From: Arenicola marina
Taxonomy: Eukaryota; Annelida; Polychaeta; Arenicolidae
DNA length: 64,000 bases
Assembly: GCA_964019135.1 (NCBI GenBank)
Contig: OZ025260.1
Location: forward strand, 23,182,254 to 23,246,253
Direction: 5' to 3'
Shown here: in pieces, positions 3,901 through 63,315 of the stretch
Numbering within the stretch: position 1 is the stretch's first letter
Layout of the letters: each line of letters begins with the position of its first letter
Notes under the pieces: model-generated
What the model was told of the DNA's origin: nothing
The model's input: only the letters and a program-made list of their open reading frames with translations
The model's database searches: none
Position numbers and translations under genes: made by a program

Positions 3901-6157
3901 CGCCTGATGCAGTACCAGCAGAAGGTCCTCACAGGTCAGTGGAAACACGTGGTCAGGTCTAACACGTGATTAGTTAGTGGGGGAGAACACATGGTCAGTG
4001 GCCTATTTCAAGTACATAGTTTAGCTACGGTGCCTAATCGGCTAAAATCGCCCATCATTTACATGGTAACTTTAGCCGACTAAGCAAAACTGCGTTCGTG
4101 AAATCCACAGCGCCACATCCACCCTTCCTTGATTGGTTAGTGGCGGTGAACACGTGGTCAGATCGATCTCCTGATTGGTTGATATGTCACGGTCATAACA
4201 CATAAATGGTCATGGGGTTTATTTTACAGGAACCCCTAACTGTGGAGCACATTCTGTTGGGGTGTGTTGACTTTCAACAAACAAGGGGTCAATATTACCG
4301 AGCAGAAACTATGAAAGAACTATTCAATAATATACCACAGCAAAAGATTTTAGATTATTTGTCTGCAATAAATCTAGTCAAATGCATATGATATCTAGTC
4401 AACGTTTACGGCCAAACAGTGCAAACGATTTTAGATTATTTAACTACAATAAATCTAGTCAAATGCATATGATATATTCAACGTTTACTGCCAAACAGTG
4501 CATTTTGCTGTAATTATTAATCTCAAAAGCTTTGTTTTAAAAACCAACTCATGGTTTTTTATTCTGACAATTTTTGACTACCGTTTCGCCATTCTTTACT
4601 TTCATGGTTTTATGACAATCTACTCAATCATATTACTTGATATCTTCAGGGTTTTATTAATCGATTAATCGATTCCACAAAGAGTGCCTTCATGATTTTA
4701 TTCATATCACGTGTATTGATTTTCAGGGTTTTAATTTTAACTAATATTGACCAATATGGCACGATATAGCCTTCCAGGCTGAAAGTGCCGTTAAGCCCCA
4801 ATCAAATCAAATCAAATCATTCGTTTACGTGTTAAAACATCGACTACTCGACTACTTTTTATCATGTATTTTTATTTATGTATTTATATCACGTATTATG
4901 AGTATTATGTCATTAATTCTCTCACAATAGTTTTTGAGCGGTCTCTAAAATCGACTACATGTACTATGTACTTAATTATACCCCAAATATTCACGCATTA
5001 CAAGAAAAACCGACTGAGTTCTCCATGAACGATGGCACACAGTGTTAGAGGGTCGTGGTCGTCTTGCAGGTGACGACTGGCCGGGCTTTGACCGCCCTCT
5101 ACAGCACGAGAGTCTCTGGTCTAGCCCCGCCCCCCAGCCTGATGCCTGGCCCGGCTCTACCATGGCCGACCCCGCGCCCAGGTCCCAGGTAAGGTCGCTA
5201 TGCCAGGAAACCGGAAGTCCGTGCCGCTATGGCTGTCTGTATATTTGTGCGGGGTACGCCGGGTAAGACATACGAACCGGGGCGTGGTTGTGCGGTTATT
5301 GTATTCTAGCACTGGCACAAGTGTTAGTATTTTAGTTCAGCTGCATTTAAATCCTGCTGATTACATGAAATGTTCTATGGCTCTATGTCTTATTCAGTCG
5401 TGCCTCAGTCAGACGATGGAATACGATTGGACAATTCCGTCCTCAGGCTTATGTGTATTTTGTAAAGGACACCTTCAAGCGGTTTTTTTTTTTTTTTTTT
5501 TTTTGGGTGGTGCTTACTGACTTTCTGATTATGATTACCCCATGTCTGGTCTTTACTCGTCTAAAGGTAGTCAGAGATAATATAAGTACATTATCTAATT
5601 TATTTTTCGTTCTTTTAAATCTAAAAAAAAAAAAATCGGTAAATAGTTTCTCCATATGTATGCCGGATGTGATTATGTAATATTCAATGAAGATTATTAT
5701 AATTTTATTAAATTATGTTACTCACCCCCGCCCTCTCTCCCCCTCTCTCCCCCTCCCACCCCCGTCCCCCTCGCAGCCGGCCGTCAGTAGCAGCAGCCTG
5801 TGGGAGCCGCCGCTGAGCAGCGCGGGCCCGGCCCCATGGCAGCCCGTCTCCGCCATCTGGCCCGGCGCCGGGGTCGCCCCCATCGACATGACGTCACAGG
5901 CCGTCGGCAACCAGCCCTCTCTGCTGGATATGCCGCAAGGGGGGCCCACCATCGCCCCCGGCGGCGTGGTCGGCCTGGGCGACGGCGGCGGCCCCATCGC
6001 CAACGGCATCCATGGCAACCACCACCCTGCCGTGAGCGGCTCTGGGCCGGCCGTCGGGAGCTTCGACCCCTTCAACACCCTGGGGAATATCTGGAACCCC
6101 GGCAGCGCCGCTGGCGCCACCTGGGGATTCCAAATGCCGCCCAACGACCAGAACTGA
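621..6157 (+). CDS. 3' part of an unrecognised Gly/Pro/Ser/Trp-rich protein gene (six coding exons)
   Basis: Exons 621-1124, 2359-2455, 3094-3221, 3803-3934, 5070-5188 and 5777-6157 join in consistent phases (1-1, 1-2, 2-1, 1-1, 1-0, 0-stop) with GT/AG borders, giving about 453 residues to a TGA at 6155. The N-terminal end is missing. The protein looks mostly disordered: a Ser/Gly/Pro stretch with an 11-Gly run in the first exon, a second Gly run in exon 4, then a short charged helix-like segment (MMQRLQAERRQRLMQYQQKV). The tail is rich in Trp motifs (SLWSS, SLWEPP, SAIWPG, NIWNPG, ATWGF) and carries DPF (SFDPFNTLGNIW). Trp/DPF tails of this kind often carry linear binding motifs, for adaptor or mRNA-decay partners for example, but I cannot name the family. 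Exons are much more GC-rich than introns. The exon chain is well supported; the function is unknown. Confidence 0.8.
1153..1628. repeat. A/T-rich tandem repeat in intron after exon 1
   Basis: About 475 bp built from blocks such as attaatgttaatattatta and tattattagtattaatgtta, repeating every 24-36 bp with small variants. Stop-free frames arise on both strands only because the unit lacks stops. It begins 28 bp after the exon donor at 1125. It is intronic and not coding. Confidence 0.85.
2730..3065. repeat. Degenerate ~23-bp tandem repeat with GTAAGT cores (intron)
   Basis: Units centre on ttggtacattgtaagtgcca. Early units (2745-2880) read tggtacattattagtgcc; the middle units contain exact GTAAGT (about 2892, 2916 and 2984) or GTAAAT, and the last ones GTGAGT. 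The array lies in the intron between donor 2456 and acceptor 3093 and ends about 25 bp before that acceptor. Confidence 0.8.
4227..4819 (+). mobile_element. 5'-truncated non-LTR retrotransposon 3' end (intronic)
   Basis: The segment is nearly identical to 27147-27738, the 3' end of the longer copy in this window. It contains the last ~55 codons of the ORF (zinc-knuckle-like tail PLTVEHILLGCVDFQQTR and stop near 4391), a 3' UTR and a tail of repeated aatca. The UTR contains an internal ~80-bp tandem duplication (ttttagattattt... twice, near 4350 and 4430), shared with the other copy and therefore ancestral to the family. It is inserted in the intron between exons 3803-3934 and 5070-5188. No clear target duplication was found. 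Confidence 0.85.
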
Positions 6158-25400: not shown

Positions 25401-28400
25401 TGAGGCTAGGGCCAGGGGGGTGACTCAAAAAGGGTTGTATAATGCTCTATAGATCAACCGACTTTTACCCCTAGCTAACAATAATGCTTGCCATAAATTT
25501 GGCAAAAAAATAATTAAACCCTTGACCGGAGAGAAAAAAAATTCCCTTAAATTTTCATTTCTTGGGGTTAGGGTGGGGAGGGAGTTTGCTAAACAAAAAA
25601 AGGTTACATTAATCTTGCTCCCATATTAGATAAAGACAAATTTTATGCTCTCATATTACCCAATAAAAATAATATTGCTCCCATTGCAGCGCAAATATTT
25701 GTGGCCCAAGCTAGAAATGATAGCCAAGAAATAGTCCTCGCCCCCACCCCCAGCGTGGATACAGAAATTAGCAAAAATGGACGGCGGGAAGTCCAATAAA
25801 AGCTTGCGACCGAGGGGGAGGGGGGAGCACTACAAAAGGGCGGGGGTCCACACCTCAGATGGCCTAACATTTGCATTGAAAAACAGCATTCCTCCTCAAA
25901 AAGGGAGAGGAGGTCCGGCCCCCCCTGGTTCCGCCCATGCCCCCCCCCCCCCATCCTTGTTTCGTCTTGCATATTGTGGTTGGAGCAACCCTAGACTTTG
26001 CACTGCTTCAGCATGATTTTATTTGCATAGGCAGAGCTATATATATAGGGAAAGTACGGCGTCCGATTTGGGGAGAATCAGAGCGGAACGCATGCAAATG
26101 GCTGGGCCACGTGCGTTTGTTTTCACCTGCGCTCGGTGCGCCGCCTGGCGAGTATAATGCGCATGACCGGAAGTCCATTTCTATGAATTATTTTGGTCTT
26201 TGCGAGATGTCAAGATGGCGTCATCGCCTGACAACGTATTTTGTAGACACTTAAACATGAAATAGTGTCATCTATGTAAGGGAAAAGTTACGTAATCTGA
26301 ATGTAAGTTAGATATGCTCATTAATTTTATACATGCCTTGCCAATACGTGGAAATATGGTATTTATCTCTATAGAAAAAGTCCAGATAACACCAAAATAT
26401 TTCCCATAACTCTTTGCGCCAGTCTCGATTTTTCAAAGATGGCGTATAATTGCGAAGTCGTGTATTCCCTCTCGACGCGTTCCCAAAACACGGATTTACG
26501 TAACCAATAATGATTTACTACACATTTCTTTGGTAACCCGGGTGTATCCCTGCGGTGGACCGAATACGCACATTACGCATCGGTCCACCGCCCGACACTT
26601 CTTTCAGCCGGGCATGGTGCGCGCGCATCCATTTGGTATGCCGATGTGCCCCGTTCAAAACAGAAGCAATAGCTCTAATGATGGCACTTGAATATATAGA
26701 AAAATCACTACTGTATACAAGCCATCAATTATCAGAAATATGAAAATCCCTTAATACAAGATATACTCATAAAATTTCATGATTTAATATGCAATGGAAC
26801 GGCGGTAGTGTTCTGCTGGATCCCTAGCCATATAGGCATAGAGGGCAACAGTCTAGCAGACGCTACCGCCAAAGAAGCTCTAAATGACGACGTCCTTCCA
26901 GTCCAGTTTCCATACTCGGACTTAAAGCCGTACATCCAAAACGAAATTACTAAAAATTGGCAGTCGTCCTGGGACGAGCAATTCTCCAATAAACTGCAAC
27001 GGCTTCAGCCTACTGTGGATACCAATCGGCCAAGAATCCGCGGTAGGCGGAGGGACGGTGTCATTCAAAGACTCAGAATTGGGCATACGTACCTTACCCA
27101 TTGCTACCTCCTCAAAGGAGAACCGCCTCCCGAATGTGTTCCCTGTCAGGAACCCCTAACTGTGGAGCACATTTTGTTGGGGTGTGTTGACTTTCAACAA
27201 ACAAGGGATCAATATTACCGAGCAGAAATTATGAAAGAACTATTCAATAATATACCACAGCAAAAGATTTTAGATTATTTGTCTGCAATAAATCTAGTCA
27301 AATGCATATGATATCTAGTCAACGTTTACGGCCAAACAGTGCAAACGATTTTAGATTATTTAACTACAATAAATCTAGTCCAATGCATATGATATATTCA
27401 ACGTTTACTGCCAAACAGTGCATTTTGTTGTAATTATTAATCTCAAAAGCTTTGTTTTAAAAACCAACTCATGGTTTTATATTCTGACAATTTTTGACTT
27501 TACCGTTTCGCCATTCTTCACTTTCATGGTTTTATGACAATCTACTCAATCATATTACTTGATATCCTCAGGGTTTTATTAATCTATTAATCGATTCCAC
27601 AAGGACTGCATTCATGGTTTTATTCATATCACGTGTATTGATTTTCAGGGTTTTAATATTGACTAATATGGACCAATATGGCACGATATAGCCTTCCAGG
27701 CTGAAAGGGCCGTTAAGCCCCAATCAAATCAAATCAAACCGTTCAAAACAGCACGGGACATTCGGGAGAAGATGGCGGCTGATTGAAAGGTGATGAGAGT
27801 AGGTTGGTTCCGGTGCCCCCTACGTGCACCGGATGTGAACGGTGTGTGCATTTCATTGGAATAGGCATATCCATGTCGGCACACCCGGAAGTTCCCTGTC
27901 ACGTGTTGCGGGTCCCGGGCGGTATACCGAACCTGGCCCAAAGAAATGCGCCCAACCTGGCTGGGTGACAACACTATATATTGCATGTAAGTTATAATAA
28001 CATTAGTCCCAACGACTTACCGCCGAATTCAACACCATATCACATATCTGCATCAGTGACCACAGTATCCAACTTTACAGTTAAGCGGACTACATGCGAA
28101 AACTGCGCTAGGCACCAGTTACCACAGCATCCAAGAGTACAGTTAGGCGGACTACATGCGGAAACCGCGCTAGACACCAATTACCGTAGTATCCAAGATT
28201 ACAGTTAAGCGGACTACACGCGGAAGCCGCGCTAGACATCGGTTACCGCAGTATCCAACTTTACAGTTAAGCGTACTACATGCGGAAACAGCTCTAAACA
28301 TCGGTTACCGTAGTATCCAAGATTACAGTTAAACGGACTACACGCGAAAATCGCGCTAGACATCGGTTACCGCAGTATCCAACTTTACAGTTAAGCGTAC

Positions 28401-31400
28401 TACATGCGGAAACAGCTCTAAACATCGGTTACCGTAGTATCCAAGATTACAGTTAAGCGGACTACACGCGAAAACCGCGCTAGACATCGTTTACCGAAGT
28501 ATCCAACTTTGCAGTTAAGGGGACTACATGCGGAAACAGCGCTGGACATCAGTTACCGCAGTATCCAACTTTACACATATATAGAATTCTTTTTAAGATA
28601 TCTTAAAAGATGGGATATGATATTGTATCCTTACCGGTTTGCCTGGTTACAGCACCGAAGGCTATACCTCTTGTTGACCATCCACTTCCTTATCGACAAT
28701 ACATGTATTGGCTTGGTCGGGAGCCTGACAAAGGGCGAGGAGCTCATCAATGGCTCGATCCGGTCGCTTCCGTGTACGCGACTTCGTCGAAATGGTATTT
28801 CCTACTGAGGACAACATATTATAATCATTGTTCAAAGCGAGCTCAGCCTCAAGGAGCGATCGCGGCATTCGATCTGTTACGGAACTCGTGTTACGCGCCG
28901 CCATGATCAACACGTGAGGTGGAAGAGTCTCCTCGTGTTTCGGTATCTTCAAAAACCTACCGCAGCGCCCTCTTTCTAGATATCTTAAAATGAATTCCAG
29001 ATATCTTAAAATGAATTCCAGATATCTTAAAATGAATTCCAGATATCTTAAAATGAATTCAATAGTACTTAAATTCCATTCAAGAGAAGTAAAAAACACA
29101 TCTCAGTTCTCCCTAGTGGCATTTTAAATATCTTTAAATCATTTTAAGATATCTTGAATTCAAGCTAAATATCTGACATACAATTGAATTTCGGAGATGT
29201 AGTCAGTAATTTATGATATCGGAAGTTGAAATCAAGATGTGTTGAATAGCTGATTTTTTTCTCATTAAAACGGCTTACGATATAGGAAGAAAGCTGTTTT
29301 TCCATGTCTTTTCCATGTGTTGTCATGATGTAAGCTTGTGCTACTTGTCTCAGATACATCTGTTGAGAGTTTGTTCTGATTTCTTCAGATACATCTGCTG
29401 TAGGCTCATTCTGTTTGCCCCTGATACTTCTTCTGCAGGGTTATTTTACTTTCCTCAGATAGTCTGTTGTAGGCTTATCCTGTTTGCCCCAAATACTTCT
29501 GCAGGGTTATTTTACTTTCCTCAGATAGTCTGTTGTAGGCTTATCCTGTTTGCCCCAAATACTTCTGCAGGGTCATTTTGCTTTCCTCAGATAGTCTGTT
29601 GTAGGCTTATCCTGTTTGCCCCAAATACTTCTGCAGGGTTATTCTGCTTTCCCCAGATACATGTACAACTGCTGTAGGCGTATTCTGTTTGCCTCAGATA
29701 CATTTGCAATGGGATTGTTCTGCTTTCCTCAGATACATCTGTTGTAGGTTTTATAGTATAAGTCTATAAAATATGTGTACACGTACATAATTTTCATGGC
29801 ATACGCTTTATATTGTTAACATAGTCAAAACCTTGTATACATTTCAAATCTATAAACTGATTTTACTTTAAGATATAGACCTATAAGTTTCCTTTTGTGA
29901 TCGCCTTTATTCAGGTTTTGGAAGTAAACGGTTTCTCCTGGAGCAATTGTGGCAAGCCTGATGATGTTATTCAGCCGTCGATGCTAGACATCGGTCCTGA
30001 TCCCATTATGTTGCCGGGCGATATCAACATAACGGCCGCTGGAAACCTGTCCCAGACCCTGACGGGACCTATTGAGGTGATATATCAAATATATAGTCAT
30101 GGAAAAAAGAAATGCACTATTTTTATTTTTGTCATATATTGTTATTAAGATTTCAATCACTTCTAAAAGTGAAGAAGGTGGTTCAGATAAAATACTGGAC
30201 ATGTCCTTTGGTGACACAGGATCTTAATCTGTTAAAGGAAGCTACCAACCTGGCTTCTAACGCTGCTTTGCCGATCGATTTATATGATACCCAAGTGTCT
30301 AACCTCCAAATTACAAATTTTTCCGTCCTGTCTGTTGCTCACAAAAAAAATTAGAAGTGACCGCTAGCCGCGATTTCGCCGCTTAACCAGGCGGAAGCCC
30401 TTTTTCGAGGTGTGTCCGCGATTGACCAATCAGGAGGCGATATTCTAATTATATTCAAACCGGAAATGACGCCTACTGTGTTAGCAAAACAAGAGCGCGT
30501 GATCATCGTTAATATAAATAGCTGCGATTCTCCAATCATGGCTTTCTTGCGGAAACAATAGTCGCAGGACGTATATCAATTTCTTTGGATGCTAAAAAGA
30601 CCGTTTCATGTACAAGTGCTGATATTTAATTCTCAATCATCAATGAAACAGAGCTGAACTAAATGTGTTTTTGTATTTCTATCTCTCGCTGAATCTTGAA
30701 TGCAATTATCCGTGCTTTTACCGATCTATTTCGGCGGCAATGCCATCCATGCAATTGTTTTATATGTAAAGCTCACGTGTATATGTACTTTCAGAGTTTT
30801 AGTAGGACTAAACATAACCGGTATGGCACAATATAGCCATACAGGCTGAAAGTGCCGTTAACCCTAACCAAATTAAATCGAATGAAACCAGTAATAAACA
30901 TTTATACATGTATTTTTGTGATGTTTGGCTCTCGCTGAAGTTTGAAGACAACTATGAACATTTATACACCTTTTTTTTGTTATTCTTTCTCTCACTGAAG
31001 TTTGAAGACATTTATGGACAATTATTCATCTGTTTTTTACGTTTAGCTCTCGCTAAAGTTAGAGAAGAAAGAACTATTCTGGTTTCCGGTGCCGTGCATC
31101 GACGACGTCGGGTCATGTGACTACAGCGACATCTGTGATAAGCTGAAGCCTATCACATGTCCCCCAGTCTTCCAGCAGTACCACATACCCTGCCACTGTC
31201 CATTCGCAGCGGTAAGCGCCGTTTTTCTGATCATGAATTGTTGGTAGGTGATATAACTCTGGGGCAGTTATTATCACCTCCCATTTATAGAAAGGAATCG
31301 ATATCATACGGATTTAAACTCATTGTTATTTGCATCTAGGGGCAAAGCAGGTAAGCACTTATTAATCCCCTTGCCGGGCGATGTCAGGTTGAGAGTGCGA

Positions 31401-32402
31401 GGCGGTCTAAATGAAGCAATATTATATTGATTTAAAAGCATTGTTATTGCATCCAGGGGTAAAGCAGGTAAGCACTTATTAATCCCCTTGCCGGGCGATG
31501 TCAGGTTGAGAGTGCGAGGCGGTCTAAATGAAGCAATATCACATTGATTTAAAAGCATTGTTATTGCATCTAGGGGTAAAGCAGGTAAGCACTTATTAAT
31601 CCCCTTGCCGGGCGATGTCAGGTTGAGAGTGCGAGGCGGTCTAAATGAAGCAATATCATATTGATTTAAAAGCATTGTTATTGCATCTAGGGGTAAAGCA
31701 GGTAAGCACTTATTTATCCCCTTGCCGGGCGATGTCAGGTTGAGAGTGCGAGGCGGTCTAAATGAAGCAATATCATATTGATTTAAAAGCATTGTTATTG
31801 CATCTAGGGGTAAAGCAGGTAAGCACTTATTAATCCCCTTGCCGGGCGATGTCAGGTTGAGAGTGCGAGGCGGTCTAAATGAAGCAATATCATATTGATT
31901 TAAAAGCATTGTTATTGCATCCAGGGGTAAAGCAGGTAAGCATTTATTTATCCCCTTGCCGGGCGATGTCACGTTGAGAGTGCGAGGCGGTCTAAATGAA
32001 TCAATATCATCAGGATTTAAAAGCATTGTTATTTGCACTTGGGGGTAAAGCAGGTAAGCACTTATTAATCCCCTTGCAATGCGATGTCATGTTGAGAGTG
32101 GGAGGCGGTCTGTAACTCAGTGCAGCACGTGGCCATGTTTTGTTCTGGTCTGCTAATGCTGAACTGCAGCAAATGGTCGCCAGTAATTCCTCTCGCTGGC
32201 TGACTGCCTCGTCACGGCGCCATGCTCATCATGCACATCCTTTGTCGTTTTGTTTCAGGGGAATTACGCGCTTCCAATGAGCTCAGTGTTCGTCAACTTC
32301 AAGCCGAGTCACATCGAGAAGGGAAACTACCGTGTGACGGCTCACATCAAACAGTCAGGGCAGGAGTTGGGCTGCGTGCACCTCCAGTTCGCGCTCCAGT
32401 GA
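22441..32402 (+). CDS. GM2A: GM2 ganglioside activator-like secreted protein, copy 1
   Basis: Four exons, all phase 0: 22441-22596, 29915-30076, 31047-31211 and 32259-32402, giving 208 residues. Residues 1-19 form a signal peptide (LFYLCVLSTILAQLAAS). The ML/GM2-activator domain spans about 55-208: FSWSNCGKPDD (59-69), LDIGPDPI, VPC-GSC-DIC (123-136), YHIPCHCPF (151-159) and NYRV...ELGC (184-200). Eight cysteines after the signal (64, 123, 130, 136, 144, 155, 157, 200) fit the four disulphides of vertebrate GM2A. Sequons lie at N90 (NIT) and N96 (NLS). In vertebrates GM2A lifts glycolipids from membranes for lysosomal hexosaminidase A; this protein likely binds lipid in lysosome or secretion, but its ligand is unknown. 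The start was chosen because it opens the signal peptide and is conserved in copy 2. Residues 20-52 have no counterpart that I recognise in vertebrate GM2A. Confidence 0.93.
24160..24420 (+). repeat. CRE/NRF1-bearing repeat, copy a (intron 1)
   Basis: TGACGTCA at 24162-24169 and tgcgcatgcg at 24179-24188 are followed by gagcctcgttatcgcgc, gaaaac and ctatgtcctag. The order and much of the sequence recur at 25211-25430. Both end with a cctggtg(t)ag-ttagtgccagg-like block. It may be a promoter-like segment from a retroposed or transposed copy. Confidence 0.6.
24790..24990. repeat. Degenerate tctctgatct repeat
   Basis: Around a dozen ctctgatct / ctgatctctgat motifs with variable spacers, including a doubled ttggcatgttctct. 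Intron 1 of GM2A copy 1. Confidence 0.6.
25211..25430 (+). repeat. CRE/NRF1-bearing repeat, copy b (intron 1)
   Basis: TGACGTCA at 25213-25220 and gcgcatgc at 25231-25238, then gagcctcgttatcgcgcc and an ATG (25369) opening a short frame before tgcctggtgag. Partner of 24160-24420. Confidence 0.6.
26664..27738 (+). mobile_element. 5'-truncated non-LTR retrotransposon with perfect 13-bp target duplication
   Basis: Flanked by ccgttcaaaacag at 26651-26663 and 27739-27751. The element starts inside its RNase H region and ends in a repeated aatca tail. ALMMALEYIEK and, after a break near 26740, VVFCWIPSHIGIEGNSLADA and TAKEAL identify the RNase H fold. The segment around the second catalytic Asp (normally after the tyrosine-threonine strand) is lost, so it is inactive. 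A C-terminal Cys/His cluster follows (ECVPCQE...VEHILLGC). The frame stops at 27311. The 3' UTR holds an ~80-bp tandem duplication also present at 4227-4819. RNase H of this kind is typical of the I/Jockey-type superfamily; I do not name the clade. Confidence 0.92.
28055..28575. repeat. ~61-bp minisatellite in GM2A copy 1 intron 1
   Basis: Eight to nine units with conserved gcggactacatgcggaaac and ggttaccgcagtatccaac plus ttacagttaa. Alternating subtypes (ctagacatcg versus ctaaacatcg; catgcg versus cacgcg) suggest two-unit duplication steps. No counterpart was recognised in copy 2. Confidence 0.88.
28580..29165. mobile_element. Possible MITE with taagatatcttaaaa ends
   Basis: At the left, tagaattctttttaagatat; at the right, several 21-bp units of agatatcttaaaatgaattc (28976-29062), then ttttaagatatcttgaattc at about 29142. 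The motif taagatatctta is itself palindromic. The span may be a single element with subterminal tandem repeats. No transposase was seen. Confidence 0.5.
29350..29760. repeat. ~39-bp minisatellite in intron 1, copy 1 version
   Basis: Alternating cagatacatctgttgtaggc / ttattctgtttgccccagat / acttctgcagggttatttt segments, about 410 bp. The same family occupies the homologous place in copy 2 (39770-40490), where it is about 720 bp long. It ends about 150 bp before exon 2 in both genes. Confidence 0.88.
30815..30890 (+). mobile_element. Decayed retroposon tail fragment
   Basis: ggcacaatatagccatacag, then gctgaaagtgccgttaaccc and an aaattaaatcg tail, match the last ~60 bp of the non-LTR elements at 4227 and 26664. 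A related but older or different family member. Intron 2 of GM2A copy 1. Confidence 0.65.
31330..32115. repeat. 117-bp minisatellite in intron 3, seven units, each with CAGGTAAGC
   Basis: Donor-like CAG|GTAAGC recurs with GT at 31351, 31468, 31585, 31702, 31819, 31936 and 32054. Each unit also holds attaatccccttgccgggcg and gagagtgcgaggcggtctaa. Copy 2 carries only one such unit (about 43030-43125). The unit is 39 codons long and stop-free in one minus frame, so a 244-codon frame appears there; this is a repeat artefact. Confidence 0.93.
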
Positions 32403-40300: not shown

Positions 40301-43300
40301 ATATCTGCAGGCTTATTTTGCTTCCCTCAGATACATCTGTTGTTGGCTTATTCTGTTTGCTCCAGATATTTTTGCATGGTTATTTTGCTTTCCTTAGATA
40401 CGTCTGCTTTAGGCTTATTCTGTTTGCCCCAGATGCTTCTGCAGGGTTATTTTGCTTTTTTCAGATACACCTGTTGTAGGTTTTATATTATAAGTCTATA
40501 AAACATGTGTACATGTACATAGTTTTCATGGCATACACTTTATATTGTTAACATAGTCATAACCTTGTATACATTTCATATCTATAAACTGATTTTACTT
40601 TAAGATATAGATCTATAAGTTTCCTTTTTTGATCGCCTTTATTCAGGTTTGGGAAGTAAACGGTTTCTCCTGGAGCAATTGTGGCAAGCCTGATGATGTT
40701 ATTCAGCCGTCGATGCTAGACATCGGTCCTGATCCCATTAGGTTGCCGGGCAGTGTCAACATAACGGCCGCTGGAAACCTGTCCCAGACCCTGACGGGAC
40801 CTATTGAGGTGATATATCAAATATATAGTCACAGCAAAAAGAAATGCACTACTTTATTTTTGTCATATATTGTTATTAAGATTTTTGTCATATTGTTATT
40901 AAGATTTCTATAACCTCATGAAGTGAAGAAGGTTGTGGCGATAAAATACTGGAATGTCCTTTGGTCACACAGGATCTTAATCTGTTAAAGGAAGCCGCCA
41001 GTCTGGCTTCTGACGCTGCCTTGCCGATCGATTCATATGATACCCAAGTGTTCATCCTCCAAATTACACAAGTTTCCGTCCTGTCCGAAGCTTACTATAA
41101 AAACATTTAAATGTTACCGCCAGACATGATTTCACCGCTTAACCAGGCGGCAGCCCTTTTTCGAGGTGTGTCCGCGATTGACCAATCAGAAGGCGATACC
41201 CTAATTATATTCAAAGCGGAAATTAAAAGATAACTTTTGTCATTTTAGTGGTGCATTTCTTTTTTCCATGAGTATCTATTACTTGTCCAATACCCTCTTA
41301 TACTCACGTATACTATTATGACGGGGTGAAAATACGTAGAAATTAGAAATACAGTGAATAAGTTTTCGTTTATAAGCTGCTTATCTGCAGCCGTGTATAT
41401 TGTACAAAGACGAGGGGGTGGTGCTGGCTTGTTTAAACATGTCTGCCACAACCCAGTGGGCAGTGAAATGCGTGCTTGGGGAGCGGGGCAACTCCCCCCC
41501 GGACAATTCCCACCTAGGACAACCCCCCCCGGATAATTCCCCCCCCCCCGGTCATTTCTCCCCCGGACAATCCCCCCCCCACCCGACAATTTCCCCCTTG
41601 GACAACTTCCCGCCCCCCTCCCGACAATTCCCCCCATGAAACTCGCCCTCCGCAACCCCCCCCCCCCGACAATTCCCCTTCGAAGCAATTGCCCCCCGGA
41701 CGAGATAACGTTTAGGTTTTATTTAGTTTTAACTCCGATTTTAATACAGATTCAAACTATTGCACCATTAATCTTCCAACAGTATTATAACAACAATAAT
41801 AATGTGTTGTATACCTGGTAGCGGATTAGTCTTTGGCATGGTTCATTTCTTATGGATTACTTTGTTTTACTTCTTTGATTTTCCTAAATGAAATAATGCG
41901 GTGTGAACGTGATATAGCCATGTGCAAAGTTAGATAATTCTATCGATGGCGATGGAATGCGATGTTTGGCAGAAAAAAAATCTTATTACACATATGCGTG
42001 CTTCTTGAAGCTATTTTAGTCCAACTTGTTAATGAGGTCTACCAAAAATGAATATAAAAACAAAAATGACAGTTAAAGTGTTGTGGATTTATTGGCAATG
42101 AGTTGTCCGGGGGGTAGTTATCCACGGGGTAACTTTCCGGGGGCAGTTGTCGGGGGGGGGGGGCGATTGTCCGTGGGGGAGTCGTCCGGGGGAGACTTGT
42201 CCGGGGGGGGGGAATTGTCCAGGGGGGAGCTGTCCGGGGGGGACTTGTCCAAGGGGGGAATTGTCCTAGGGAAGACTTGTCGGGGGGGGGGGGGGTGCTT
42301 TGTCCCGGCGTGAATTGTCGGGGGGAGTTGTCCGAGAGGGACTTGTCTGGGGGGCAGTTGTCCGGGGGGGGAAATGTCCGCGGGGGAGTTGTCCTAGAAC
42401 CGCGTGCTTGTAACTACGTATATATGTATTGTATGTATGATGGTTGGCCGGGTGAACTGGCCACCACGGTAACGGGTCTATGCGCGTCTAGCTCCGCTTG
42501 CTGGCTAAAGATACAGCTTGCGGACTGACCCATGCCACACCCGGGGTCTACTGGATCTACCGGGATAAGACTCACTCACCGAGCACGGCCACCACATCGC
42601 ATTCCCCATGTGTCGATGAAGGAATAAATAGAAACTTCTGACAAAAGCCCTGCGTTAGCTGTTATGTATAACCGGATTCTCCACCAGTATATAACCGGCC
42701 CTGTTTATACATGTGGTCTTTTGATGTTTATAGCTCTCGCTGAAGATGCAGAAGAAAATCCTGTTCTGGATTCATGTGCCATGCATGCACGGCGTCGGGT
42801 CATGTGACTACAGCGACATCTGTGATAAGCTGAAGCCTATCAAATGTCCCCACGTCTTCCAGCATTACCACATACCCTGCCACTGTCCATTCGAAGCGGT
42901 AAGCGCCTTGTTTCTGATCATGAATTGTTGGTACGTGATATAAGCAAGGATATTGTATAATACACTGTCCTTGATATAACTCACAGTCACTTTATATTAT
43001 CCCCCATATAAACCCGATACCGTATTCATTTAAGCGTATTGTTATTTGCATCTGGAGGTAAGGCAGGTAAGCACTTATTACTCCCCTTGCCAGTCATGTT
43101 GAGAGTGCGAGGCGGTCTTTCACGTGGCCATGTTTTGTTCTGGTTTGCTAATGTTGAATTGCAGCAAATGGTCGCCAGTAATTCCTCTCGCTGGCTGACT
43201 GCCTCGTCACGGCGCCATGCTCATCATGCACATCCTTTGTCGTTTTGTTTCAGGGGAATTACACGCTTCCAATGAGCTCAGTGTTCGTCAACTTCAAGCC

Positions 43301-51110: not shown

Positions 51111-54100
51111 TCGCCTGGCCTGGGCAGGCAGCCAAGCCTGGGGAGACAGCCAAGCCTGGGCAGGCAGCCAAGCCTGGGGAGGCAGCCAAGCCTGGGGAGG
51201 CAGCCAAGCCTGGGCAGGCAGCCAAGCCAGGGGAGGCAGCCAAGCCTGGGGAGACAGCCAAGCCTGGGCAGACAGCCAAGCCTGGGGAGGCAGCCAAGCC
51301 TGGGGAGGCAGCCAAGCCTGGGGAGACAGCCAAGCCTGGGCAGGCAGCCAAGCCTGGGCAGACAGCCAAGCCTGGGGAGACAGCCAAGCCTGTGGAGACA
51401 GCCAAGCCTGGGGAGGCAGCCAAGCCTGGGGAGGCAACCAAGCCTGGGGAGACAGCCAAGCCAGGGGAGGCAGCCAAGCCTGGGGAGACAGCCAAGCCTG
51501 GGGAGGCAGCCAAGCCTGGGGAGACAGCCAAGCCTGGGGAGACAGCCAAGCCTGGGGAGACAACCAAGCCTGGGGAGGCAGCCAAGCCTGGGCAGACAGC
51601 CAAGCCTGGGGAGACAGCCAAGCCTGGGCAGGCAGCCAAGCCTGGGCAGACAGCCAAGCCTGGGGAGACAGCCAAGCCTGTGGAGACAGCCAAGCCTGGG
51701 GAGGCAGCCAAGCCTGGGGCGGCAGCCAAGCCTGGGGAGACAGCCAAGCCAGGGGAGGCAGCCAAGCCTGGGGAGACAGCCAAGCCTGGGGAGGCAGCCA
51801 AGCCTGGGGAGACAACCAAGCCTGGGGAGGCAGCCAAGCCTGGGGAGACATCCAAGCCTGGGGAGACAGCCAAGCCTGGGGAGACAACCAAGCCTGGGGA
51901 GGCAGCCAAGCCTGGGGCGGCAGCCAAGCCTGGGGAGACAGCTAAGCCAGGGGAGGCAGCCAAGCCTGGGGAGACAACCAAGCCTGGGGAGACAGCCAAG
52001 CCTGGGGAGACAGCCAAGCCTGGGGAGGCAGCCAAGCCTGGGGAGGCAACCAAGCCTGGGGAGACAGCCAAGCCTGGGGAGGCAGCCAAGCCTGGGGCGG
52101 CAGCCAAGCCTGGGGAGACAGCCAAGCCTGGGGAGGCAGCCAAGCCTGGGGAGACAGCCAAGCCTGGGGAGGCAGCCAAGCCTGGGGAGACAGCCAAGCC
52201 TGGGCAGGCAGCCAAGCCTGGGGCGGCAGCCAAGCCTGGGGAGACAGCCAAGCCTGGGCAGGCAGCCAAGCCTGTGGAGACAGCCAAGCCTGGAGAGACA
52301 GCCAAGCCTGTGGAGACAGCCAAGCCTGGGGAGACAGCCAAGCCTGGGGAGACAGCCAAGCCTGGGGAGACAGCCAAGCCTGGGGAGACAACCAAGCCTG
52401 GGGAGACAACCAAGCCTGGGGAGACAGCCAAGCCTGGGGAGACAGCCAAGCCTGGGGAGGCAGCCAAGCTTGAGGAGGCAGCCAAGCCTGGGGAGACATC
52501 CAAGCCTGGGGAGACAGCCAAGCCTGGGGAGACAACCAAGCCTGGGGAGACAGCCAAGCCTGGGGAGACAGCCAAGCCTGGGCAGGCAGCCAAGCCTGGG
52601 CAGGCAGCCAAGCCAGGGCAGGCAGCCAAGCCTGGGCAGGCAGCCAAGCCAGGGCAGGCAGTCAAGCCTGGGGAGACAGCCAAGCCTGGGGAGACAGCCA
52701 AGCCTGGGGAGACAACCAAGCCTTGGGAGACAGCCAAGCCTGGGAGACAGCCAAGCCTGGGGAGGCAGCCAAGCCTGGGGAGACACCCAAGCCTGGGGAG
52801 ACAGCCAAGCCTGGGGAGGCAGCCAAGCCTGGGGAGACAACCAAGCCTGGGGAGACAGCCAAGCCTGGGGAGACAGCCAAGCCTGGGGAGACAACCAAGC
52901 CTGGGGAGACAGCCAAGCCTGGGGAGACAGCCAAGCCTAGAGAGGCAGCCAAGCCTGGGGCGGCAGCCAAGCCTGGGGCGGCAGCCAAGCCTGGGGAGAC
53001 AACCAAGCCTGGGGAGACAGCCAAGCCTGGGGAGACAGCCAAGCCTGGGGAGACAACCAAGCCTGGGGAGACAGCCAAGCCTGGGGAGACAGCCAAGCCT
53101 AGAGAGGCAGCCAAGCCTGGGGCGGCAGCCAAGCCTGGGGCGGCAGCCAAGTCTGAGGAGGCAGCTAAGCCTGGGGAGACAGCCAAGCCTGGGGAGGCAG
53201 CCAAGCCTGGGGCGGCAGCCAAGCCTGAGGAGGCAGCCAAGCCTGGGGAGACAGCCAAGCCTGGGCAGGCAGCCAAGCCTGGGGAGACAACCAAGCCTGG
53301 GGAGACAGCCAAGCCTGGGGAGACAGCCAAGCCTGGGGAGGCAACCAAGCCTGGGGAGGCAGCCAAGCCTGGGGCGGCAGCCAAGCCTGGGGAGACAGCC
53401 AAGCCTGGGGCGGCAGCCAAGCCTGGGGAGACAGCCAAGCCTGGGGAGACAACCAAGCCTGGGGAGGCAGCCAAGCCTGGGGAGGCAACCAAGCCTGGGG
53501 AGGCAGCCAAGCCTGGGGCGGCAGCCAAGCCTGGGGAGACAGCCAAGCCTGGGGCGGCAGCCAAGCCTGGGGAGACAGCCAAGCCTGAGGAGACAGCCAA
53601 GCCTGGGGAGACAGCCAAGCCTGGGCAGGCAGCCAAGCCTGGGGCGGCAGCCAAGCCTGGGGCGGCAGCCAAGCCTGAGGAGGCAGCTAAGCCTGGGGAG
53701 ACAGCCAAGCCTGGGGAGGCAGCCAAGCCTGGGGCGGCAGCCAAGCCTGAGGAGGCAGCCAAACCTGGGGAGACAGCCAAGCCTGGGGAGACAGCCAAGC
53801 CTGGGGAGACAACCAAGCCTGGGGAGGCAGCCAAGCCTGGGGAGGCAACCAAGCCTGGGGAGGCAGCCAAGCCTGGGGCGGCAGCCAAGCCTGGGGAGAC
53901 AGCCAAGCCTGGGGCGGCAGCCAAGCCTGGGGAGACAGCCAAGCCTGGGGAGGCAGCCAAGCCTGGGGAGACAGCCAAGCCTGCGGAGGCAGCCAAGCCT
54001 GGGGAGACAACCAAGCCTGGGGAGGCAGCCAAGCCTGGGGAGACAGCCAAGCGTGGGGAGACAGCCAAGCCTGGGGAGACAACCAAGCCTGGGGAGGCAG

Positions 54101-54510
54101 CCAAGCCTGGGGAGGCAGCCAAGCCTGGGGAGACAGCCAAGCCTGGGGAGACAGCCAAGCCTGGGGAGGCAACCAAGCCTGGGGAAACAGCCAAGCCTGG
54201 GGAGACAGCCAAGCCTGGGGAGACAGCCAAGCCTGGGGAGGCAGCCAAGCCTGGGGAGACAACCAAGCCTGGGGAGACAGCCAAGCCTGGGGAGACAGCC
54301 AAGCCTGGAGAGACAGCCAAGCCTGGGGAGACAGCCAAGCCTGGGGAGGCAGCCAAGCCTGGGGAGACAGCCAAGCCTGGGGAAACAGCCAAGCCTGGGG
54401 AGGCAGCCAAGCCTGGGGATACAGCCAAGCCTGGGGAGGCAGCCAAGCCTGGGGAGACAGCCAAGCCTGGGGAGACAGCCAAGCCTAGAGAGGCAGCCAA
54501 GCCTGCATGG
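51111..54510. repeat. 3.4-kb array of an 18-bp unit (cctggggagacagccaag)
   Basis: About 189 units. Variants: gagaca, gaggca, gcaggca, gcggca, tggagaca. Nearly all units are exactly 18 bp; one 17-bp unit (cctgggagacagccaag near 52740) shifts the frames. Higher-order structure is visible: the ggaggcagctaag variant recurs 522 bp (29 units) apart (53161 and 53683) inside a matching block, and a nine-unit (162-bp) block with the cctagagaggca variant repeats near 52935 and 53097. Being stop-free, it opens up to 1151 codons in five or six frames at once (hexapeptides such as PGETAK, LGRQPS, CLPRLG). No codon bias favours any frame. Confidence 0.96.
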
Positions 54511-56913: not shown

Positions 56914-59900
56914 TCACTTCCACATGGACATAGAGTAGCGGCGATTGGATTGCCCGGATGCCCCGAGGGCGGCCCCGGAGATGGTCGCCACTTGGGTCAC
57001 CGGCCGGAAACCCCCGGCCCCCAGCAGCTCCGGATTGTTGTAGGCCACCCGCACGTGGCTCCTGGAGACGGACCGTCGCATCAGCTTGCTGAGGGTCGGG
57101 GCGCCCACCTTGGAGGCCCTGTGGGACACGTCCCACAGCCCCGACGTCTGCAGCACGTACCCGACGTAGATAATGACCCCGCACGCGATGATGAACACAC
57201 ACACCAATATGGCGTGATACAAGTGCACCGTGGTCGCGGCGGAAGTGACGTCACACACCGGGGACAAGTCATGGAAGCACTGGGTGATGACGTCAGCGAA
57301 TTTGGCCGGTCGTCCGTAGCAGTCCCCGATCGCGATGGCGAACAGAACGCCTAAAGCAAAGGCAATGACTGGTTAAGGACAGAAAAAGAAGTTAAGACAT
57401 CATGAAAAATGGTGGTGAATCAACTGAAAAGTAAAATCAGTTCCCGTAAAGCGCAATTAATTATCTCGGTAGCCCATTCTATTTCTTTCTTCGTCCGCTC
57501 CCCATTGATCAATAATGGGTTCCGGGCACGTTTATAAATCACTTATAGCTCTTCCGCAGCTCTCTACGCGTGTAACATGTCATTAACATCAAAACGTGAG
57601 ACCCAAATACGATGGGAAAACAAAGAGAAAGAGAGACAGCCGAAGATAAATAGAGACTGACAGATAGAAGGAAAAAGCAGGAGACTGAGACGGAGAAAGA
57701 CAGCATAGGCGAAATCTAGAGGCGATAGAGATAAAGAAAAACAAGAACAGAGAGCGACAGAGAGGGGGGGGGGCGAGAGAGCGAGAGAGAAAAAATCGTG
57801 AGAGAGTGAGAGGCAACAGCGAGACCGTGAGAAGGCGCAGAGTTTAGTATGGAATACTACTATAGTTTGGGACAGTTAAATAATTAGGCGGAGACATGTC
57901 TCGTAAGGCAGAGCGGGATTGCACAGAGTTGCCTTGGTATTGCTTAACAGTGATTACCTGTACTAATGGTGGCCAGGCCAGTGATTACCTGAACTAAGGG
58001 TGGCCAGGTCAGTTATTACCTGAACTAATGGTGGCCAGGCCAGTGATTACCTGAACTAATGGTGACCAGGCCAGTGATTACCTGTACTAATGGTGGCCAG
58101 GCCAGTGATTACCTGAACTAATGGTGACCAGGCCAGTGATTACCTGTACTAATGGTGGCCAGGCCAGTGATTACCTGTACTATTGTTGGCCAGGCCAGTG
58201 ATTACCTGTACTAATGGTGGCCAGGTCAGTGATTACCTGTACTAATGGTGGCCAGGCCAGTGATTACCTGTACTATTGGTGGCCAGGTCAGTGATTACCT
58301 GTACTAATGGTGGCCAGGCCAGTGATTACCTGTACTAATGGTGGCCAGGCCAGTGATTACCTGTACTAATGGTGGCCAGGCCAGTGATTACCTGTACTAT
58401 TGTTGGCCAGGCCAGTGATTACCTGTACTAATGGTGGCCAGGTCAGTGATTACCTGTACTAATGGTGGCCAGGCCAGTGATTACCTGTACTAATGGTGAC
58501 CAGGCCAGTGATTACCTGTACTAATGGTGGCCAGGCCAGTGATTACCTGTACTATTGTTGGCCAGGCCAGTGATTACCTGTACTAATGGTGGCCAGGTCA
58601 GTGATTACCTGTACTAATGGTGGCCAGGCCAGTGATTACCTGTACTATTGGTGGCCAGGTCAGTGATTACCTGTACTATTGGTGGCCAGGCCAGTGATTA
58701 CCTGTACTAATGGTGGCCAGGTCAGTGATTACCTGTACTAATGGTGGCCAGGTCAGTGATTACCTGTACTAATGGTGGCCAGGCCAGTGATTACCTGTAC
58801 TATTGGTGGCCAGGTCAGTGATTACCTGTACTATTGGTGGCCAGGTCAGTGATTACCTGTACTAATGGTGGCCAGGCCAGTGATTACCTGCACTAATGGT
58901 GGCCAGGTCAGTGATTACCTGCACTAATGGTGGCCAGGTCAGTTATTACCTGAACTAATGGTGGCCAGGTCAGTGATTACCTGAACTAATGGTGGCCAGG
59001 CCAGTGATTACCTGAACTAAGGGTGGCCAGGCCAGTCATTACCTGTACTAATGGTGGCCAGGTCAGTGATTACCTGAACTAATGGTGACCAGGCCAGTGA
59101 TTACCTGCACTAATGGTGGCCAGGTCAGTGATTACCTGAACTAATGGTGACCAGGCCAGTGATTACCTGCACTAATGGTGGCCAGGTCAGTGATTACCTG
59201 AACTAATGGTGGCCAGGTCAGTGATTACCTGAACTAATAGTGGCCAGGCCAGTGATTACCTGTACTATTGGTGACCAGGTCAATTATTACCTGAACTAAT
59301 GGTGACCAGGCCAGTGATTACCTGCACTAATGGTGGCCAGGTCAGTGATTACCTGAACTAATGGTGGCCAGGCCAGTTATTACCTGAACTAATGGTGACC
59401 AGGCCAGTGATTACCTGCACTAATGGTGGCCAGGCCAGTTATTACCTGAACTAATGGTGACCAGGCCATTTATTACATGTACTAATGGTGGCCAGGCCAG
59501 TGATTACCTGTACTAATGGTGGCCAGGCCAGTTATTACCTGAACTAATGGTGACCAGGTCATTTATTACCTGTACTAATGGTGGCCAGGTCAGTGATTAC
59601 CTGCACTAATGGTGGCCAGGTCAGTGATTACCTGAACTAATAGTGGCCAGGCCAGTTATTACCTGAACTAATGGTGGCCAGGTCAGTTATTATCTGAACT
59701 AATGGTGGCCAGGTCAGTGATTACCTGTACTATTGGTGACCAGGTCAATTATTACCTGAACTAATGGTGACCAGGCCAGTGATTACCTGCACTAATGGTG
59801 GCCAGGTCAGTGATTACCTGAACTAATAGTGGCCAGGTCAGTTATTACCTGAACTAATGGTGGCCAGGCCAGTTATTACCTGAACTTATGGTGACCAGGC

Positions 59901-60371
59901 CATTTATTACCTGTACTAATGGTCGCCAGGGCCAGTTATTACCTGAACTAATGGTGGCCAGGTCAGTGATTACCTGTACTATTGGTGACCAGGTCAATTA
60001 TTACCTGAACTAATGGTGACCAGGCCAGTGATTACCTGCACTAATGGTGGCAGAGCAGTGATTACCTGAACTAATAGTGGCCAGGTCAGTTATTACCTGA
60101 ACTAATGGTGGCCAGGCCAGTTATTACCTGAACTAATGGTGACCAGGCCATTTATTACCTGTACTAATGGTCGCCAGGGCCAGTTATTACCTGAACTAAT
60201 GGCGGCCAGGCCAGATATTACCTGAACTAATGGTGGCCAGGGCCAGGCCAATAGACATGTTGTCCGCTGTCTTGGCCTGGGGTACGAACAGGTAGAGGGT
60301 CTGCAATAGGCACATGATCAGGGAGGAGACGATGCCGCTAATACCCAGGACCTGACTCGTCCTGAAGCCGC
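56914..60371 (-). CDS. 3' part of an unrecognised multi-pass membrane protein gene
   Basis: Two coding exons on the minus strand: 60371-60222 (150 bp, acceptor tttcag, donor CAG|GTAATA) and 57350-56914 (437 bp, acceptor ctttag, stop TGA at 56916-56914). Both junctions are phase 1 and join SIGLALATISS to GVLFAIAIGDCYG. About 195 residues are visible. TM helices: VLGISGIVSSLIMCLLQTLY; a second spanning the exon junction (MSIGLALATISSGVLFAIAI); and HAILVCVFIIACGVIIYVGY. Between helices 2 and 3 is a ~35-residue loop with three Cys (DCYG, QCFHD, VCDV). A ~80-residue basic, Ser-rich C-tail ends RRYSMSMWK. The layout suggests a four-helix protein with its first helix upstream of the window's exons. 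Family not recognised. The separating intron (57351-60221) is mostly minisatellite. Confidence 0.8.
57600..57835. repeat. Polypurine (GA-rich) tract in the membrane-protein intron
   Basis: About 235 bp almost entirely A and G on the plus strand (gagagacagagagg-type), including a G9 run near 57768. On the transcribed strand this is a long polypyrimidine tract 250-485 bp downstream of the true acceptor in transcript order, not upstream of it. Triplex-prone. Confidence 0.7.
57943..60240. repeat. 31-bp minisatellite copying an exon end and its 5' splice site
   Basis: About 74 units. On the minus strand each unit reads tggccaccattagtacag then gtaatcactggcc. The true exon end at 60222 reads ggccaccattagttcag|gtaatatctggcctggcc. 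The array thus starts at the genuine exon/intron junction and repeats it, CAG|GT included, through most of the intron. Unit variants (ttagtt/ttagta/ttagtg; aatcac/aataac; ggtggcc/ggtgacc) are arranged in multi-unit blocks. A few units have mutated the GT context. Confidence 0.95.
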
Positions 60372-60983: not shown

Positions 60984-63052
60984 GGCGGCCGGACAGGTTA
61001 TCACGGCCGGACAGGTTATCACGGCCGGACAGGTTATCACGGCCGGACAGGTTATCACGGCCGGACAGGTTATCACGGCCGGACAGGTTATCACAGCCGG
61101 ACAGGTTATCACGGCCGGACAGGTTATCACGGCCGGACAGGTTATCACAGCCGGACAGGTTATCACGGCCGGACAGGTTATCACGGCCGGACAGGTTATC
61201 ACGGCCGGACAGGTTATCACGGCCGGACAGGTTATCACAGCCGGACAGGTTATCACAGCCGGACAGGTTATCACAGCCGGACAGGTTATCACGGCCGGAC
61301 AGGTTATCACAGCCGGACAGGTTATCACGGCCGGACAGGTTATCACGGCCGGACAGGTTATCACGGCCGGACAGGTTATCACAGCCGGACAGGTTATCAC
61401 GGCCGGACAGGTTATCACGGCCGGACAGGTTATCACGGCCGGACAGGTTATCACAGCCGGACAGGTTATCACGGCCGGACAGGTTATCACGGCCGGACAG
61501 GTTATCACAGCCGGACAGGTTATCACGGCCGGACAGGTTATCACGGCCGGACAGGTTATCACAGCCGGACAGGTTATCACGGCCGGACAAGTTATCACGG
61601 CCGGACAGGCTATCACGGCCGGACAGGTTATCACGGCCGGACAGGTTATCACGGCCGGACATGTTATCACGGCCGGACAGGTTATCACGGCCGGACAGGT
61701 TATCACAGCCGGACAGGTTATCACGGCCGGACAGGTTATCACGACCGGACAGGTTATCACGGCCGGACAGGTTATCACGGCCGGACAGGCTATCACAGCC
61801 GGACAGGTTATCACGGCCGGACAGGTTATCACAGCCGGACAGGTTATCACAGCCGGACAGGTTATCACGGCCGGACAGGTTATCACGGCCGGACAGGTTA
61901 TCACAGCCGGACAGGTTATCACGGCCGGACAGGTTATCACGGCCGGACAGGTTATCACAGCCGGACAGGTTATCACGGCCGGACAGGTTATCACGGCCGG
62001 ACAGGTTATCACGGCCGGACAGGTTATCACGGCCGGACAGGTTATCACAGCCGGACAGGTTATCACAGCCGGACAGGTTATCACGGCCGGACAGGTTATC
62101 ACGACCGGACAGGTTATCACGGCCGGACAGGTTATCACGGCCGGACAGGTTATCACGGCCGGACAGGTTATCACGGCCGGACAGGTTATCACGGCCGGAC
62201 AGGCTATCACAGCCGGACAGGTTATCACGGCCGGACAGGTTATCACGACCGGACAGGTTATCACAGCCGGACAGGTTATCACGGCCGGACAGGTTATCAC
62301 GGCCGGACAGGTTATCACGGCCGGACAGGTTATCACGGCCGGACAGGTTATCACGGCCGGACAGGCTATTACGGCCGGACAGGTTATCACGGCCGGACAG
62401 GTTATCACGGCCGGACAGGTTATCACGGCCGGACAGGTTATCACGGCCGGACAGGTTATCCCGGCCGGACAGGCTATTACGGCCGGACAGGTTATCACGG
62501 CCGGACAGGTTATCACGGCCGGACAGGTTATCACGGCCGGACAGGTTATCACGGCCGGACAGGTTATCACGGCCGGACAGGTTATCACGGCCGGACAGGC
62601 TATCACAGCCGGACAGGTTATCACGGCCGGACAGGTTATCACGACCGGACAGGTTATCACAGCCGGACAGGTTATCACGGCCGGACAGGTTATCACGGCC
62701 GGACAGGTTATCACGGCCGGACAGGTTATCACAGCCGGACAGGTTATCACGGCCGGACAGGTTATCACAGCCGGACAGGTTATCACGGCCGGACAGGTTA
62801 TCACGGCCGGACAGGTTATCACAGCCGGACAGGTTATCACGGCCGGACAAGTTATCACGGCCGGACAGGTTATCACGGCCGGACAGGTTATCACGGCCGG
62901 ACAGGTTATCACGGCCGGACAGGTTATCACGGCCGGACAGGTTATTACGGCCGGACAGGTTATCCCGGCCGGACAGGCTATTACGGCCGGACAGGTTATC
63001 ACGGCCGGACAGGTTATCACGGCCGGACAGGTTATCACGGCCGGACAGGTTA
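60984..63052. repeat. 2.1-kb array of an 18-bp unit (cggccggacaggttatca)
   Basis: About 115 units, very homogeneous. Variants: cagccgg for cggccgg, ggctat for ggttat, cgaccgg, ttaccgg-type. Each standard unit contains the palindrome cggccg. The C-to-T-type change cg>ca in cacggccgg/cacagccgg fits CpG decay. Blocks repeat in order; for example the run with ggctattacgg and ttatcccgg occurs near 62365-62470 and again near 62945-62990. Three frames of 649-707 codons are open for this reason only. Confidence 0.96.
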
Positions 63053-63315
63053 TAATGTTACACCGGGTTGGGTATTCCCGTGATTATGTAAACAAATTGC
63101 TTTGGTTTCGTGGAAGAAAATGTATATTACATGGCTTCTCATGGCAGATGGGTTTATCTCACCACACAATTCCTATCTTACAATCCCTCAAATGACTCTG
63201 ATATGATAGCCATAGGCTGAGAAAAACCCATCTCGCACTCGAACCAATGCCATATGCATATCCTCTAACACCGTACGTATTTCACCTAATGGGTTCCGCA
63301 CCGATGCCCGTGGCG
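63053..63315. other. Spacer, nothing recognised
   Basis: Unique sequence right of the array, without motifs or plausible exons. Confidence 0.4.

Follow-up and report, generated by a model that had tools for sequence, protein, structure and literature searches.

Repetitive DNA tied to splice sites is known from introner elements, which are dispersed through many genes. Minisatellites spanning an exon–intron boundary have been described in amphioxus as 'mirages' (Adh3, troponin C, the globins BflGb6 and BflGb9, and PGBD5), and in the available text of the two papers many of their units retain AG/GT, their length is unstable, the BflGb6 mirage undergoes concerted evolution from which the edge units are exempt, and splicing is reported or suggested to be undisturbed (PMC3087553, PMC3902484). 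Copy numbers given there are 3 or 6 for BflGb6 and 2–7 for PGBD5, with unit lengths of 10–72 bp in Adh3, 150–160 bp in the globins, and 60 and 108 bp in PGBD5 (PMC3087553, PMC3902484); the lancelet PGBD5 gene model is described as mostly without transcript support, and troponin C is cited (PMC3902484, available text). In the Rogers model, introns are gained by tandem duplication of exon segments containing AGGT (as cited in the available text of PMC3087553), and potato RdRp is given as a case of such gain (PMC4974935, available text).

The array analysed here lies on the minus strand of a 64,000-base stretch of DNA (the window, that is, the whole stretch that was analysed):

57948–60246, minus strand: junction minisatellite of 74 head-to-tail units of about 31 bp, delimited by TRF, a unit walk, exon–array alignment and a genome-wide pattern search.

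As in the amphioxus mirages, the unit is made of the end of an exon and the start of an intron of the predicted host gene, and AG/GT is kept, with the donor core CAGGTAAT present in 72 of 74 units. It differs from them in having 74 units (3 or 6 in BflGb6, 2–7 in PGBD5) of 31 bp each, and in copy number is larger than the mirages whose counts appear in the available text of those papers (BflGb6, PGBD5). With introns gained by AGGT duplication the array has in common that the AG/GT of an exon edge recurs in tandem, but its units carry donors, not acceptors, and it ends at 57948, with a predicted ordinary acceptor (57369/57368) about 580 nt beyond. With introners it shares repetitive DNA linked to splice sites, but 73 of 73 pattern matches fall in one array, at a single locus in the assembly. 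The view of the initial annotation that no described system resembles this one does not hold, since junction-spanning amphioxus mirages have been published (PMC3087553, PMC3902484); an array this long with so many intact donors was not found in the available text of these two papers, in a comparison that was not systematic and lacked counts for Adh3 and troponin C. The array is a large new example of a known structure.

The host gene was predicted on the same strand, with the following parts:

68721–68382 of the continued window, in neighbouring chromosome sequence (segment L009), minus strand: exon 1.

60222–60371, minus strand: exon A, 150 nt long, placed by its open frame and phase-1 joins; the predicted protein has four hydrophobic helices, and the final ~25 nt of the exon correspond to the repeat unit.

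60221–60222, minus strand: the real 5' splice site, TTCAG/GTAATATCT, in phase 1, which fits exon B, with a U1 duplex of −8.1 kcal/mol.

57369–60221, minus strand: intron 2, 2853 nt, with the putative acceptor AACCAG/TC at 57369/57368, chosen from the sequence and a phase check.

56914–57368, minus strand: exon B, the last coding exon, an open frame closed by a TGA stop at 56916–56914.

With both introns in phase 1, exons 1, A and B form a single reading frame of 314 aa that starts with ATG, ends with TGA and has no internal stop, and the frame across exons A and B was open in just 12 of 5000 base shuffles. GC at the three codon positions is 0.47/0.45/0.78 in exon A, where 6 of the 9 last codons end in G or C, and 0.55/0.49/0.84 in exon B; exon 1 is less distinct (0.72 at the third position versus 0.64 and 0.56). 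The 314-aa predicted protein has four hydrophobic helices by hydropathy, a topology that we take to resemble claudin/PMP22-type four-helix proteins, and the coding stretch of exon A that overlaps the repeat is in frame and partly within a predicted membrane helix. No Pfam family passed its cut-off for the protein, longer versions included (best NicO, E = 0.011), PDB gave 0 matches, protein databases gave no homologue with E ≤ 1 among 1023 candidates or with E ≤ 10 among 2981, a search of the assembly returned exon B in this one copy only, and Rfam gave 0 matches at gathering cut-offs. An alternative in-frame acceptor, TTTAG/GC at 57351/57350, lies 18 nt inside exon B, and the choice within this acceptor pair (57350–57369) would decide whether six residues of a predicted membrane helix are present. 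Two 18-bp arrays were also recorded by TRF, at 51118–54505 (188 copies) and at 60986–63053 (115 copies), the latter in intron 1 of the host gene with CAGGTTATC repeated on the plus strand.

TRF analysis of the minus strand at 57948–60246 gave a period of 31, 74.1 copies and 91% matches, and a donor-centred walk resolved one real junction (exon end at 60222) followed by 73 copies, 74 units including the real donor, in agreement with the ~74 junction copies within the intron of the initial annotation. Of the 73 unit steps in this walk, 70 measure 31 bp, two 32 bp and one 30 bp. The unit is indeed the exon/intron junction itself, as had been proposed, but not with the proposed split of 17 exonic and 14 intronic bases, the exon end contributing about 20–25 nt and the intron start 9–10 nt. 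The near-universal CAG/GTAAT core was borne out by the unit walk, in which it is intact in all but two of the units:

59477–59694, minus strand: stretch with both of the decoys whose core is broken, CAGATAAT (exon-side base, 59694) and CATGTAAT (59477), from the unit walk.

The majority decoy sequence is GGCCTGGCCACCATTAGTACAG/GTAATCACT, 30 distinct unit sequences occur among the 74, and the real 31-nt junction is 74–94% identical to the 73 decoy units. Unit 0, the real junction, carries GTAATATCT as a private intron part and has a mean identity of 0.87, with 0.80–0.93 for units other than unit 0 and 0.93 for the last unit. Units eight apart are the most alike (identity 0.929, versus 0.907–0.922 at other lags from 1 to 24), and units 10–17 are a near repeat of units 2–9, a pattern that multi-unit (block) duplication would produce.

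Exon A alone was aligned to the array with a local score of 43, whereas the best of 1000 exon shuffles reached 31; the aligned part is bases 126–150 of 150, so that the match stops at the final exon base. As a control, exon A was compared with the remaining arrays of the surrounding 284 kb (101 TRF rows of ≥300 bp, first 2300 bases each, both strands), producing a maximum score of 27, and exon A minus its last 22 nt was without repeat similarity (27% of 500 shuffles equally good). A search of the accessible stretches of the 867-Mb assembly with the unit pattern (≤3 mismatches) gave 73 matches, all within the array and none outside it, and 0 matches for a reversed-pattern control, both counts being lower bounds. 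A non-exonic progenitor elsewhere, which the initial annotation had named as a finding that would refute its reading, was thus looked for assembly-wide at ≤3 mismatches and rejected, as none was found.

The consequences of decoy use are set by a stop codon in the first repeat step:

60196–60198, minus strand: in-frame TAG before any decoy donor, from translation of the extended exon; the extended isoform ends in ATISSGNIWPGRH followed by the stop.

This TAG (60198–60196) is 24 nt into the intron and upstream of the first decoy, and all +31n isoforms are predicted to end in SGNIWPGRH followed by the stop, regardless of n; since every decoy lies beyond it, decoy use would truncate the protein. 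In-frame exon ladders were rejected on account of this stop, the earlier point that frame is kept every three steps becomes moot, and useful variable exon lengths, also suggested at the outset, are unsupported because the same in-frame stop is added with every decoy. By the 50-nt rule, a stop more than 50 nt before a junction leads to nonsense-mediated decay; this distance is exceeded from the third decoy (60128) onward, and messages spliced at least three steps in should therefore be open to decay. The real donor is followed, as annotated, by dozens of near-identical decoys, 71 of the 73 copies having the computed U1 duplex energy of the real donor (−8.1 kcal/mol). In a folding model, the 9-nt opening probability was 0.035 for the real donor and 0.069 on average for the decoys, and RNA structure hiding the decoys was rejected, as these are on average slightly more accessible than the real donor. 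With decoys equal in strength and slightly more accessible, nothing local to the donor would explain why the first one wins. The usual explanation of splice-site choice invokes site strength together with flanking enhancers; here, with core and U1 pairing shared by 71 decoys and units 74–94% identical, mainly position and the exon body would mark the real donor.

Arrays nearby were surveyed over 283,747 bases (the window plus segments L009–L030, with 600 N), in which TRF rows cover 77,639 bases and collapse to 85 arrays; within the window, TRF arrays cover 16,950 of the 64,000 bases. Array edges next to coding-like sequence were screened for splice sites with a crude scan (best 25 rows, false-positive rate uncalibrated), in which the 31-bp array ranked top and several of the best 25 rows proved to be proline-rich coding repeats. 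The scan also brought up formin (FH2) genes with a 59-bp donor array that spans a junction, present in 6 of the 6 paralogues examined, which are closely similar to one another and were drawn from 44 FH2 matches:

L018, L020, L022, L024 and L025–L026 (C13:23338–23417 kb), and L031:236–1534: formin arrays.

Five of the paralogues stand in tandem in the survey stretch and one more at L031, with 33.3, 27.3, 15.3, 25.2 and 22.3 array copies by TRF in the five counted. PF02181 (FH2) matched the array-adjoining exon (C13:23416900–23417052) at E = 2.7e-4, below the curated cut-off for that exon alone, and the neighbouring exon (23417195–23417470) above cut-off at E = 7.8e-13. The similarity of exon alone to array was equalled by 0, 0, 0, 3 and 0 of 1000 shuffles in five copies, and the exon–array match ends at the final exon base, though the similarity is weaker than in the host gene. 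GTTAAC is found at 20 of 26, 14 of 14, 27 of 28 and 30 of 32 CAGGT sites in the four arrays scored, with a U1 energy of −5.6 against −8.3 for the real formin donor. Since the paralogues are closely similar, they probably go back to one founding event followed by duplication, giving at most two independent junction arrays in the stretch. Three 31-bp arrays of four copies by another formin exon were rejected as mirages (47–88% of 300 shuffles equally good), and a Pfam search with four short exon pieces from the survey gave one match, below cut-off.

Acceptor-like AG was seen in the last units of arrays in L028–L029 (joined coordinates 259450–262316, 262379–262797 and 270414–270782), followed by an open, mildly coding-like stretch; these acceptor-edge arrays are possibly 3' mirages or mobile-element repeats, and Pfam gave no match for two short pieces from them. 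Two GM2-activator-like genes (ML domain) in the window are ~87% identical across their aligned exon-bearing parts, one with ~7 copies of a 117-bp intronic unit (31301–32111) and the other with one (about 43015–43120), and each consensus unit contains a strong donor-like CAG/GTAAGC (U1 −11.0). This array was rejected as a mirage, as it begins ~90 bp inside the intron; the seven-versus-one difference suggests that in this genome an intronic segment present once can become an array, or an array can shrink to one copy, and the pair is a before/after case for array gain or loss. A GM2-activator query gave 8 protein matches at 35–40% identity, the first four from fishes, none named as lancelet and one of unshown organism. 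The GFP family is numerous in lancelets; a search for it gave 0 matches, a result that does not show absence. Two segments of ~590 bp (4227–4816 and 27147–27738) are 97% identical, and the second overlaps the end of an RNase H-like frame (26700–27308, Pfam match below cut-off), so the segment is perhaps a retroelement end.

Several accounts of the array were weighed against one another. A functional array, with U1-binding decoys acting as a sink or brake, or with the fixed stop serving regulated unproductive splicing, is favoured by the U1 energy that 71 of 73 decoys share with the real donor, by the identical stop reached from any decoy, and by the conservation of CAGGTAAT: among the 31 rotations no 8-mer is better kept (70 of 72 units, against 54 for the runner-up), a result that selection could also yield. 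In column statistics on 70 decoys (3 with indels left out), however, polymorphic columns were 2 of 8 in the donor core versus 11 of 23 elsewhere (Fisher p = 0.41, a weak test), and private (singleton) mutations were not rarer in the core (2 in 8 core columns, 3 in 23 others), so that this weak test gives no sign of selection for decoys; the formin decoys are mostly the weaker GTTAAC, strength not being kept there, and published mirages reportedly leave splicing unaffected (PMC3087553, PMC3902484, available text). We consider a function for the array unlikely.

The order of events could also have been reversed, with an intronic minisatellite present beforehand and its edge made the end of the exon through adoption of a donor in its first unit. 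Under either order the array covers the final ~25 coding nt, and no homologue (none found among 1023 and 2981 candidates) fixes the ancestral exon end; set against this, the overlap is in frame and partly in a predicted membrane helix, exon A has a third-position GC of 0.78, and each formin array is placed where an FH2-matching exon ends, though that match stops ~20 nt before the donor. We regard a repeat that came first as distinctly improbable. An unreal junction or copy number, from a wrong exon model or assembly (a pseudogene, or a collapsed or inflated array), would be compatible with a gene model that is predicted from sequence and with the lack of protein homologues among the same candidates, but the phases of the three exons agree, the joined frame has both a start and a stop codon, the A+B frame survives so few shuffles (12 of 5000), and 30 distinct unit sequences among 74 are unlike simple assembly stutter. 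We hold such an error to be very improbable indeed.

The account that we prefer, and consider probable, is that the array is a mirage minisatellite seeded across the exon A/intron 2 junction, near-neutral, with the first donor normally used. It is carried by the anatomy, the exon match, the lack of any other match in the assembly, the block duplication and the similar formin array. A short stretch straddling the junction would have been duplicated in tandem, the exon preceding the array, and growth to 74 units would have proceeded by repeated unequal exchange, slippage or conversion; neutral slippage or gene conversion, with the splice site as its seed, was the first of the options offered by the initial annotation. 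The array would have spread into the intron only, since growth toward the coding side would break the protein. The first donor would normally be used, it alone being joined to the whole 150-nt exon and the upstream acceptor (exon definition), occasional decoy use would yield one truncated protein, and the array itself would be near neutral and have hardly any function, if one at all.

Put forward tentatively, as a possibility on the doubtful side, mirages may be no lancelet curiosity: a genome that is possibly non-lancelet would repeatedly amplify exon–intron junctions, so that junctions seed minisatellites, and the spliceosome, faced with dozens of equal donors, would routinely follow a rule of position and not of strength in taking the first. 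The array is a good test of site choice, in that the fixed in-frame stop makes each splicing error readable and transcript ends per step would give a direct measure of the position rule; to judge by the formin arrays, the seeding of junction arrays could be surveyed genome-wide.
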